Source: Falsirhodobacter algicola
GTDB lineage: Bacteria > Pseudomonadota > Alphaproteobacteria > Rhodobacterales > Rhodobacteraceae
Assembly (NCBI RefSeq): GCF_018279165.1
Contig: NZ_CP047289.1
Coordinates: 682,001 to 746,000, forward strand
Reading direction: 5' to 3'
DNA: 64,000 bases
Each line of letters opens with the position of its first letter. Positions within the stretch are counted from its first letter, which is position 1. This document shows positions 52,094 to 55,867 of this stretch, in pieces. The notes beneath the pieces were generated by a model that was not told where the DNA came from, made no database searches, and saw only the letters and a program-made list of their open reading frames with translations. Both the position numbers and the translations under genes were made by a program.

Positions 52094-52960
52094 ATGGATA
52101 TTCTCTGCATCGGTTCCGTCCTCTGGGACATCATCGGGCGTTCGCCCTCGGCCATGCGACTCGGCTCGGACGTGCCGGGGCGCATCACGCGCATTCCCGG
52201 CGGCGTGGCGATGAACATCGCCATCACGCTGCGCCGATTCGGCCTGACCCCCGGCCTGCTGACCGCCATCGGCCGCGACCCCGAGGGGGACGAACTGGTG
52301 GCAGACTGCGCCCGGCTTGGGATGGTGATCGATCACATCTATCGCTCGGACGATCTGCCGACCGACCGCTACATGGCGGTGGAGGGCGCGAACGGGCTGA
52401 TCGCGGCCATCGCCGACGCCCATTCGCTGGAGGCCGCGGGCGACAAGATCCTGCGCCCGCTGACGGACGCGCTTGCCGGCTGGTCCGGGCCCATCGCCCT
52501 CGACGGCAACCTGACCGAGCAGCTTCTGGCAGAAATCGCCGTCTCGCCGCTCTTTGCCGGAGCCGATCTGCGCGTGGCGCCCGCAAGCCCGGGCAAGGCC
52601 GAACGGCTCCTGCCGCTTCTGGGCTGCGCGAACGCGACGATCTATGTGAACCTCGAGGAGGCGAACATCCTCTCCAAGGTCCATTCGGACACCGCCGCCG
52701 CCGCCGCCGAGGCGCTTCTGGCGCGCGGGGCCGCGCATGTATTGGTGACGGATGGCGGCCGCGCCTGCGCCGAAGGGCGCGCCGGCGAAGGCGTCATCAC
52801 CGACACCCCGCCCCCCGTTCTGGTGACGCGCGTCACCGGCGCGGGTGACACCTTCATGGCCGCGCATCTCGTGGCCGAACAACAGGGCGCCAGCCGGACG
52901 GAGGCGCTGCGCGCCGCCCTTCGCGCTGCCGCCGACCATGTATCCGGAGACATCGCATGA
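52094..52960 (+). CDS. psuK: PfkB-family kinase, probably pseudouridine kinase
   Basis: A 288-aa ribokinase-fold enzyme. PfkB signature 1 lies around [18 protein letters not shown] and signature 2 is [14 protein letters not shown], with the catalytic base in GAGD. On its own the family is broad (ribose, fructose, nucleosides). The ATGA overlap with psuG identifies the substrate as pseudouridine, which it would phosphorylate at the 5' position. ATG at 52094 begins [16 protein letters not shown], the usual first strand of the fold; the upstream extension is antisense to rpsB–tsf. It is divergent from rpsB, about 40 bp from its promoter. Confidence 0.85.
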
Positions 52961-53871
52961 CCCTGCCCCTCATCCTTCAGTCGGACGTGGCCGATGCGCT
53001 GGCCGAGGGCACGCCCGTCGTCGCCCTCGAAAGCACCATCATCACCCATGGCATGCCCTTCCCGCAGAACGTGGAGATGGCCCGCGCCGTGGAGGCCGTG
53101 ATCCGCGAAGGCGGCGCCGTTCCCGCGACCATCGCGATCATGAACGGCGCGATCCATGTGGGCCTCGATGACGAGGATCTCGATTTCCTCGGTCAGACGC
53201 CGGACGCGATGAAACTGTCGCGGGCGGATCTGGCCGTCGGCATCACCTCGGGCCGGGTCGGCGCGACGACGGTCGCGGCAACGATGATCTGCGCGCGGCT
53301 GGCGGGCATCGACGTCTTCGCCACCGGCGGCATCGGCGGCGTACATCGCGGGGCAGAAACCAGCTTCGACATCTCGGCCGATCTTCCCGAACTCGGGCAG
53401 ACCGCAGTGACCGTCGTCGCGGCGGGCGCGAAGGCGATCCTCGATCTGCCCAAGACGCTGGAAGTGCTGGAGACGCATGGCGTTCCCGTCATCGCCTATG
53501 GTCAGGACGATTTCCCGGCCTTCTGGTCGCGCGCATCGGGTCTGAAATCGCCGCTGCGGATGGACAGCGCCGCCGAGATTGCGGCCGCCCATCTGATGCG
53601 CGGCACGCTGGGCCTGCCCGGCGGGCAACTGGTCGCGAACCCGATCCCCGTTGCGCATGAAATCCCGCAAGAGGAAATCACTCCGGCGATCGAAGCCGCG
53701 CTGCGCGAGGCCGAGAGCCAAGGCATCGCCGCCAAGGAAGTGACGCCCTTCCTCCTCGACCGCATCTTCGCGCTGACCGAGGGGCGCTCGCTCCGCTCCA
53801 ACATCGAGCTTGTTCTGAACAACGCGCGACTGGCGGCGGAAATCGCTGGGGAAATCGCGCGGCTGCGGTGA
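52957..53871 (+). CDS. psuG: Pseudouridine-5'-phosphate glycosidase
   Basis: A 304-aa enzyme cleaving pseudouridine-5'-P to uracil and ribose-5-P. The catalytic Glu lies in [13 protein letters not shown] and the Schiff-base-like Lys in [39 protein letters not shown] and [14 protein letters not shown] are family blocks. It completes a two-gene pseudouridine salvage unit with psuK (4 bp overlap). No pseudouridine transporter is adjacent, so turnover of endogenous RNA is the likely source. The C-terminus is followed by the candidate small RNA on the opposite strand. Confidence 0.95.
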
Positions 53872-53888: not shown

Positions 53889-53963
53889 AAAAAAAGACGC
53901 CGGCACGAAGCCGGCGTTCAGTATGAGGCAGGTTTCATACAGGCAAGAAACCTATCGAGCAGT
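53889..53963 (-). ncRNA. Candidate small RNA, about 75 nt, between psuG and a solute-binding protein gene
   Basis: On the minus strand a promoter (53970–53998) is followed by about 75 nt with no ORF. A stem-loop AGGTTTC/GAAACCT (plus-strand 53930–53936 with 53947–53953) comes first. A strong terminator hairpin follows, ACGCCGGC/GCCGGCGT (53897–53904 with 53910–53917), then seven T (53889–53895). No minus-strand gene ends here, so the terminator needs another owner. I do not recognise the RNA family. The same hairpin could also help end psuG on the plus strand, but there it lacks a T tract. Confidence 0.65.
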
Positions 53964-53969
53964 GAGGCC

Positions 53970-53998
53970 TTTATACGCCCCCACTCTCACTTGGCCAA
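53970..53998 (-). promoter_or_regulatory. Promoter of the candidate small RNA
   Basis: On the minus strand TTGGCC (53993–53998), 17 bp, TATAAA (53970–53975). The –10 matches five of six positions at ideal spacing. The predicted start is near 53963. Confidence 0.65.
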
Positions 53999-54064
53999 GT
54001 TAAAAGTTTGAAATGGCGGGTCTTGCACCTAATCTGGCCGCCATCCAGCATAGGTGCGGGGGGC

Positions 54065-55867
54065 ATGGCAGGCATGACGCGGCAATACATCAGCATTTTG
54101 GCGGCCGCGGTCCTAGCCTTCCTACCGGGCGTGACAGCGGCCGAACCGGCGCATGGAATTGCGATGTATGGCGAACCGGCCCTGCCGCCGGACTTCGACC
54201 ACCTGCCCTATGCCAACCCCGATGCGCCCAAGGGCGGGACGATGGTGATGGGCGAATCGGGCGGATTCGACTCGCTCAATCCGTTCATCCTGAAGGGGCG
54301 CGCGCCGTGGTTCCTCGGCCCTTGGACGGTGGAAACGCTGATGGCCCGGTCCATCGACGAGCCGTTCACCCTGTACGGCCTCTTGGCCGAAAGCATCGAC
54401 ACCGACGAGGCGCGCAGCTACGCCGAATTCACCCTGCGCCCCGAGGCCCGCTTCTCCGACGGCAATCCCGTGACGGTGGAGGATGTGATCTGGTCCTTCC
54501 GCACGCTGGCCGAGGAAGGCCAGCCCCGCTATGCCGGCGCATGGTCCAAGATCGCGAGCGTGGAGCAGACGGGCCCCCGCTCCGTCCGCTTCACCTTCAC
54601 CGAAGCCGACCGCGAGATGCCGCTGATCCTCGGCCTGCGTCCCGTGCTGGAAAAGGCCCAGTGGGAGGGCAAGGATTTCGCGGCCTCCTCGCTCGAGGCG
54701 CCGATCGGCTCCGGCCCCTATGTGGTCGAAGATTTCGAGCCGAACCGCTACATCACCTACCGTCGGAACCCCGATTGGTGGGGCGCGGATCTTCCGGTCA
54801 ATCGCGGCCTCTACAACTTCGATCACCTGCGGACCGAGTTCTACGGCGATCAGGGCGTCGTCTTCGAGGCGTTCAAGGCGGGCAGTTTGTCGATCTGGCG
54901 CGAGGAGAATCCCGCCCGCTGGATGACCGCCTTCGATTTCCCCGCCGTGCAGGATGGCCGTGTCGTGATGGAGGAGATCCCCCATCACCGCCCCTCGGGG
55001 ATGCATGGCTTCGTGATGAACACCCGCCGCCCCGTCTTCGACGATCTGCGCGTGCGCGAGGCGATGATCCTTGCCTTCGATTTCAAACGGATCAACGGCA
55101 TCCTGACCGGCGGGACCGAGCCGCGGATCGAAAGCTACTTCTCCAACTCCGACCTCGGCATGACGCCCGGCACGCCTGCGCCGAAGGATGTGTCGGACCT
55201 CTTGGCCCCCTATCGTCAGACGCTGCTGCCGGGGGTGATGGACGGCTATGCCCTGCCCAGCACGGATGGATCGAACCGCGCGAACCTGCGCCGCGCCGCG
55301 ATGCTTCTGAGCGAGGCCGGATGGACGGTGGAGCATGGCCGCCTGATGAAGAACGGCACGCCCTTCACCTTCGAAATCCTGCTGCCCCAAGGCGCGGGGG
55401 AGACGGCGACCATCGCCAACATCTACATTCAGGCCCTGCGTCGCCTTGGGATCGACGCGACGCTCCGCAGCGTCGATGCCGCGCAATACAGCCAGCGCGT
55501 CACCAATTTCGACTTCGACATGACCGAGATCTTGCGCAGCTTCTCGTTGTCGCCGGGGAACGAACAGACGCTCTATTGGGGATCGTCGGGGGCGAACCAG
55601 CCCGGCTCGCGCAATCTGATGGGCATGGTCGATCCGGCCGCCGATGCGATGATCACCGCCATGGTCCGGTCCGAGGATCCGGCCCAGTTCAACGCCGCAA
55701 CCCGTGCGTTGGACCGGGTGCTGATGTCGGGGCGCTATGTCATCCCGTTCTGGTATGCGCGCGTGTCGCGGATCGCCTATGACCGCGCGTTCCATCACCC
55801 CGACCGCCTGCCGCTCTATGGCGACTGGCCGGGCTTCCAACCCGATACATGGTGGTACGCGCCCTGA
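54065..55867 (+). CDS. Extracellular solute-binding protein family 5 (YejA-like)
   Basis: About 600 aa with a Sec signal peptide (MTRQYISILAAAVLAFLPG … TAAEP) and a family-5 binding fold. HGIAMYGEPALPPDFDHLPY and NPDAPKGGTMVMGESGGFDS near the N-terminus are typical of the YejA/microcin C and oligopeptide subgroup. RPEARFSDGNPVTVEDV and GSGPYVVEDF are the usual core motifs. Substrate unknown; likely peptides. No yejBEF-type permease or ATPase genes follow, so it is an orphan here. Start is uncertain: ATG 54065 follows GGGGGG; ATG 54074 (MTRQYISIL) is also plausible. It is divergent from the candidate small RNA. Confidence 0.85.
   Translation: MAGMTRQYISILAAAVLAFLPGVTAAEPAHGIAMYGEPALPPDFDHLPYANPDAPKGGTMVMGESGGFDSLNPFILKGRAPWFLGPWTVETLMARSIDEPFTLYGLLAESIDTDEARSYAEFTLRPEARFSDGNPVTVEDVIWSFRTLAEEGQPRYAGAWSKIASVEQTGPRSVRFTFTEADREMPLILGLRPVLEKAQWEGKDFAASSLEAPIGSGPYVVEDFEPNRYITYRRNPDWWGADLPVNRGLYNFDHLRTEFYGDQGVVFEAFKAGSLSIWREENPARWMTAFDFPAVQDGRVVMEEIPHHRPSGMHGFVMNTRRPVFDDLRVREAMILAFDFKRINGILTGGTEPRIESYFSNSDLGMTPGTPAPKDVSDLLAPYRQTLLPGVMDGYALPSTDGSNRANLRRAAMLLSEAGWTVEHGRLMKNGTPFTFEILLPQGAGETATIANIYIQALRRLGIDATLRSVDAAQYSQRVTNFDFDMTEILRSFSLSPGNEQTLYWGSSGANQPGSRNLMGMVDPAADAMITAMVRSEDPAQFNAATRALDRVLMSGRYVIPFWYARVSRIAYDRAFHHPDRLPLYGDWPGFQPDTWWYAP

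Follow-up and report, generated by a model that had tools for sequence, protein, structure and literature searches.

The leader of the dcw operon yields the sRNA UpsM through partial termination (PMC5089854). In Rhodobacter sphaeroides, the dcw 5′ UTR is 268 nt long and UpsM 206 nt, and RNase E cleavage of UpsM gives a 130-nt 3′ fragment (PMC5089854). UpsM is reported to be the most abundant sRNA of this species and to represent about 60% of the Hfq-bound sRNA (PMC5089854); its domain R1 has been described as hardly conserved (PMC5089854). StsR (formerly RSs0827) is reported to be 72 nt long, to be controlled by RpoHI/RpoHII, to bind both UpsM and the 5′ UTR of dcw, and to trigger the cleavage of UpsM by RNase E (PMC8307010, PMC11354728, PMC8625941). 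Among other described RNAs, the alphaR8 family (MmgR and SisA-D; Rfam RF00519, suhB), in which the sponge CrfA is known (PMC12559287), resembles the sRNA examined here in size and layout, and SorX of R. sphaeroides (RF02784) resembles it in size and terminator. The intergenic sRNAs 60 and 134 of Paracoccus denitrificans (80 and 84 nt) are strongly expressed and conserved across Rhodobacteraceae (PMC5107571). Either of these two might be the present sRNA.

We analysed an sRNA locus in a window of 64,000 nucleotides, by which we mean the whole stretch of Falsirhodobacter algicola DNA under study. Unlike UpsM, which arises in cis from the dcw leader, the present sRNA comes from a separate locus that has a promoter of its own; in the mechanism proposed below, UpsM is its partner, which would link two sRNAs with each other as well as an sRNA with a leader. 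A search of open-access papers gave none that describes this sRNA, which may sit among uncharacterised RNA-seq candidates.

Architecture and conservation of the sRNA locus

The original prediction described a TTGGCC-17-TATAAA promoter on the minus strand, driving a unit of about 75 nt that contains an AGGTTTC/GAAACCT stem with a loop of about 10 nt and ends in an 8-bp hairpin followed by seven T. All of these parts were present, the unit running from 53963 to 53889. The features of the locus are as follows.

54001..54010, minus strand: A/T-rich, UP-like upstream promoter element CAAACTTTTA, adjoining the −35 element on its upstream side
53993..53998, minus strand: −35 element TTGGCC (within CTTGGCC), from sequence reading and conservation
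53970..53975, minus strand: −10 element TATAAA, 17 nt from the −35 element
53889..53963, minus strand: sRNA gene, 75 nt, with +1 A at 53963; start predicted from the −10 spacing and the onset of invariance
53956..53962, minus strand: 5′ single-stranded segment CTGCTCG, a potential pairing partner of CGAGCAG in R2, a hairpin of the UpsM leader
53930..53953, minus strand: stem-loop 1 (AGGTTTC/loop/GAAACCT), predicted fold
53934..53946, minus strand: segment TTGCCTGTATGAA, perfect complement of TTCATACAGGCAA in the dcw leader of the same genome
53897..53917, minus strand: Rho-independent terminator hairpin, 8 bp, from a terminator scan match and covariation
53889..53895, minus strand: T7 tract of the terminator (U-tail), a T run kept in all aligned relatives
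52957..53871, plus strand: psuG, pseudouridine-5′-phosphate glycosidase (Indigoidine_A, PF04227), the downstream neighbour, reading towards the sRNA
54065..55867, plus strand: extracellular solute-binding protein family 5 (SBP_bac_5, PF00496), the divergent neighbour

On the minus strand, the arms of stem-loop 1 occupy 53953-53947 (AGGTTTC) and 53936-53930 (GAAACCT) and enclose a 10-nt loop, TTGCCTGTAT, at 53946-53937 (UUGCCUGUAU in the RNA form). The terminator reads ACGCCGGC-TTCGT-GCCGGCGT at 53917-53897 and continues with CTTTTTTT down to 53889. The predicted fold of the 77-nt stretch 53965-53889 (the sRNA and 2 further nt) had an energy of −25.8 kcal/mol, compared with a mean of −15.0 for shuffled sequences (z = −4.0), and none of 200 shuffles folded equally well. 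No stop codon is conserved after an ATG in the loop: of 105 sequences, 50 lack a stop and the others stop after 5–7 codons. A small-protein reading of this ATG was rejected on these grounds.

The 195-bp region around the sRNA was matched by blastn in 59 of 60 other sampled Rhodobacteraceae genomes, and nothing convincing was found in 40 genomes from other families of the class. A search with a 21-nt core, TTTCTTGCCTGTATGAAACCT, allowing up to 3 mismatches, gave matches in 382 of 394 Rhodobacteraceae genomes, a set that represents almost every genus by a single genome; for good assemblies, the count was 343 of 347. All but one or two of the sRNA copies among the matches listed are free of mismatches. 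Within Paracoccus, a 32-nt core was present in 124 of 125 genomes, every listed copy being exact even though 2 mismatches were allowed. Nucleotides 1–38 of the sRNA were identical in 46 of 50 aligned sequences, 44 of which had not been picked for an exact core, and the exceptions were G021, G023, G035, and G036. The core also persists in G010, G014, G020, and G060 despite drifted promoter and terminator sequences. A further scan of named genomes used an exact 40-mer, with which invariance arises by construction, and served only for names, neighbours, and promoters. Two records with unexpected names, L091 (Nocardioides marinus) and L083 (a Sphingomonadales MAG), carry the sRNA core together with nearby psuG homologues, and are probably misnamed or contaminated.

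An E. coli-type promoter scan did not call the sRNA promoter because position −7 is A and not T. The argument for promoter function comes instead from conservation in relatives: across 140 loci, most of which were picked for an exact RNA core, TTGG (−35 to −32) is 94–100% conserved, TATA 98–100%, and the A at −7 78%, and the TATAAA element would be sigma-70-like. The upstream element (−47 to −39) is 84–99% conserved in the same 140 relatives and has been lost in a few diverged members. The strongly conserved sequence at −47 to −38 in relatives, TCAAACTTTTA, adjoins the −35 element within upstream DNA that the divergent solute-binding gene shares, and may be a UP element or a regulator site.

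In the terminator helix, two-sided compensatory changes were observed in 7 of 8 pairs among 49 distinct sequences, with a covariation score that was reached by none of 500 shuffles. Stem-loop 1 is invariant, 6 of its 7 pairs never varying, and covariation is therefore uninformative for it, neither for nor against. Support from covariation is thus confined to the terminator helix. A covariance model scored the Rhodobacteraceae sRNAs at 96–106 bits and gave nothing convincing in 289 genomes of the class outside the family (best about 28 bits). A sequence in a distant alphaproteobacterium, AAGTTTTTAGCCTGTATATAACTT (L297, G693:C16:20047-20118), resembles stem-loop 1 and has no terminator; this match may be due to chance or may be a remote relative.

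Judged by its conservation, the sRNA is real. The original prediction of a terminated sRNA with its own promoter and an exposed pairing loop is supported on the same grounds, and the promoter and hairpins whose absence from relatives was to count against it are kept. Thirty-eight nucleotides so constant over several hundred genera are rare for a bacterial trans-sRNA.

Comparison with StsR and other small RNAs

No Rfam family matched the sRNA at the gathering cut-off. The score against RF00519 was 22.7 bits (E 0.004) in the window and 29.0 bits in a relative (L047), with a cut-off of 41 bits, and the score against SorX was 19.1 bits, compared with a cut-off of 46.6 bits. Membership of alphaR8 and of SorX was rejected, both matches being sub-threshold. 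The pyrimidine stretch UUUCCUCCCU of the RF00519 consensus in the Rfam alignment is absent from the present sRNA; we take this stretch to be the published 10-mer of the alphaR8 family. The genome that carries the window contains no alphaR8 match at E ≤ 0.001. In G057, an R. sphaeroides-like genome, a sub-threshold RF00519 match of 32 bits (L272, G057:C4:1639296-1639375), separate from the present sRNA, is a candidate MmgR-like sRNA.

The published Northern probe for StsR is GGACAGTGAAGGTAGAACGG (PMC11354728). Its complement, CCGTTCTACCTTCACTGTCC, is absent from the present sRNA, the best among the matches listed having at least 8 mismatches. In G057 and G137, the exact probe complement sits at a different locus, which in G057 is about 586 kb from the counterpart of the present sRNA (G057:C4:1443996-1444124); G057 is probably R. 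sphaeroides, since it carries this exact site. The probe locus lies between rRNA methyltransferase-like and CoA-binding-like genes (L168 and L169, near position 1500) and has a terminator and a CCCATGT −10 element, whereas the present sRNA has TATAAA. We take CCCATGT to be of the RpoH type according to the E. coli sigma-32 consensus, which fits the control of StsR by RpoHI/RpoHII. The positions of UpsM (RSs0682, 695 kb) and of the probe site (858 kb) would also fit sequential numbering for RSs0827.

In G057, a 12-nt segment of the RNA from the probe locus, CCTTCACTGTCC, is the perfect complement of GGACAGTGAAGG, which lies 24 nt upstream of mraZ; GGACAGTG occurs in only 9 of the 41 leaders examined below. 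StsR is like the present sRNA in being small and terminated and in its complementarity to the UpsM/dcw leader, but its leader site differs. Two distinct sRNAs thus appear to share the dcw leader as a partner.

Complementarity to the dcw leader and UpsM

The blastn search with the 195-bp region gave a second, shorter match to the sRNA loop and 3′ arm in many genomes. Twenty of these second-match regions were fetched, and 18 were TGCCTGTATGAAACCTG, antisense to the leader of mraZ, the first gene of the dcw (cell-division) operon. In 41 leaders with the site, we determined the longest perfect complement to nt 1–40 of the sRNA. Its median length was 17 nt (range 9–19), compared with a mean of 6.9 nt (maximum 14) for shuffled leaders and a median of 7 nt for the sense strand. 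Part of this set was found via the match itself, and two counts therefore matter more. The site was absent from 4 (G014, G033, G035, and G036) of 30 leaders fetched via MraZ alone (20 and 10), the remainder carrying it intact or, in a few, eroded. The strict pattern TTCATACAGGC...ATCCG was present in 266 of the 394 Rhodobacteraceae genomes, a handful of these matches being the sRNA gene itself. In the genome of the window, the match TTCATACAGGCAA is 13 nt long, compared with 17–19 nt in relatives, and starts at 218861 (G000:C1); this dcw/UpsM leader lies about 517 kb from the sRNA.

The local hybridisation energy including opening costs had a median of −14.8 kcal/mol for the leaders. By whole-RNA duplexfold energies, only 23 of the 41 leaders were better than all of their shuffles. 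Long loops bring down the energies of the shuffles as well, which makes this comparison uninformative, and it was replaced by the longest-run and opening-energy tests. A second element, CGAGCAG, follows the main site within 90 nt downstream in 36 of the 41 leaders, in the same order as CUGCUCG in the sRNA. No compensatory change between sRNA and leader was observed in the checkable diverged members G021, G035, and G036; the leader of G023, which was left out, is off its contig. Cofolding pointed to invasion of the 5′ strand of R1 by the invariant CCUCA, an idea that was abandoned because some leaders lack GAGG.

The position of the site within UpsM was determined in G057 (leader L233, from −54 to +214 relative to the pairing site). 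Counting back from the mraZ GTG, the site corresponds to UpsM nt 55–71. The reported 206- and 130-nt species place the RNase E cut near nt 76/77, which falls within the 3′ strand of the helix closing R1. The site therefore ends about 5 nt from the cut, directly against this helix. The predicted fold of the G057 leader recovers the R1 closing helix and the published R1–R4 layout. By eye, many genera apparently retain the closing helix while differing in its sequence, as in GATGAGGACGGG/CCCGATTTCATC and GACGAGGGCGG/CCGCTTTCGTC.

The locus combines a promoter and start, a U-tailed terminator, no conserved reading frame, and conserved complementarity in trans, as in trans-encoded base-pairing sRNAs; its U tail and single-stranded linker fit putative Hfq binding, no more. 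We infer an RNA of about 75 nt that would have a sigma-70-like promoter and a terminator of its own and act in trans as an Hfq-type base-pairing sRNA. Its loop and 3′ arm would pair in vivo with the dcw leader inside UpsM, as the computed complementarity suggests, and its CUGCUCG could form a co-linear duplex with the CGAGCAG of R2. Base-pairing next to the RNase E site could then tune the processing of UpsM and, through the shared leader, the expression of dcw or read-through into it. Such tuning was judged the most likely effect because the duplex adjoins the R1 closing helix, about 5 nt from the cut. The complementarity makes it probable, to a good degree of confidence, that pairing with the UpsM/dcw leader is a real function of the sRNA. 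That the sRNA tunes UpsM processing and thereby dcw expression is held more tentatively, at a little under an even chance.

Alternative roles of the sRNA

The original prediction named the divergent peptide-binding protein gene as a possible target. The placement of the sRNA beside this gene is indeed conserved: of the 126 loci that hold enough sequence, 124 have an SBP_bac_5 gene upstream that reads divergently. In relatives, psuG frequently lies no more than about 3 kb away. The SBP start region also shows mild enrichment of a few 7-mers, CAAGAAA among them. The mean longest complement between this region and the sRNA was, however, 6.4 nt compared with 6.1 nt in shuffles (138 loci), which is no excess, and the conserved shared promoter region accounts for the neighbourhood without pairing. 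Regulation of the divergent gene by the sRNA is therefore highly improbable, and the conserved partner is the dcw/UpsM leader. That leader is also a reported partner of StsR, and a common partner RNA, a similar size (72 nt reported, compared with 75–76 nt), and the same bacterial family might suggest that the two sRNAs are one. Their probe sites, loci, and leader sites all differ, as do their promoters, that of the present sRNA being of a non-RpoH class; identity with StsR was rejected, and we regard it as extremely improbable.

The remaining alternatives concern what the pairing is for. The sRNA is intact where the leader site is absent (G014) or eroded (G020 and G060), and UpsM alone therefore does not explain the 38 near-invariant nucleotides; additional targets or a protein ligand are likely. 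This constraint beyond UpsM would be expected if the abundant UpsM/dcw leader were a sponge that keeps the sRNA inactive during growth, the sRNA mainly regulating other mRNAs through its loop and 5′ end until StsR-triggered RNase E cleavage in stress frees or removes it. The reported share of UpsM in Hfq-bound sRNA (about 60%; PMC5089854) and the sRNA sponges known in the class, such as CrfA and SisA-D in Caulobacter (PMC12559287), are in keeping with this role. Against it, no conserved mRNA target was found: in 12 genomes, 11-mers complementary to the loop or 5′ end recurred only in the sRNA gene itself and in scattered matches at a chance-like level. We consider the sponge rather unlikely. 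Persistence of the sRNA after loss of the leader site (G014) would equally suit an RNA that acts by binding a protein, for which the invariant stem-loop 1 is as well suited as for pairing, the match to UpsM then being a coincidence. Many genera, however, have perfect antisense of 17–19 nt at one and the same position of the leader, which is not chance, and this explanation is very unlikely. A base-pairing sRNA acting on the UpsM/dcw leader remains our best explanation overall, with a probability somewhat better than even.

With this explanation, UpsM and the cell-division operon would have a second candidate RNA regulator in the family to which Rhodobacter, Paracoccus, and the marine roseobacters belong, and the exact complementary segments make the pairing directly testable. 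A wider proposal, which we offer as speculative and unlikely, is a family-wide RNA switch in which transcription of the division genes makes the sponge that holds the sRNA and so determines how active a global sRNA regulator is, the StsR-triggered RNase E cut beside the pairing site releasing or destroying the sRNA in stress. As far as can be read from sequence, the sRNA may help to tie cell division to growth in these bacteria.
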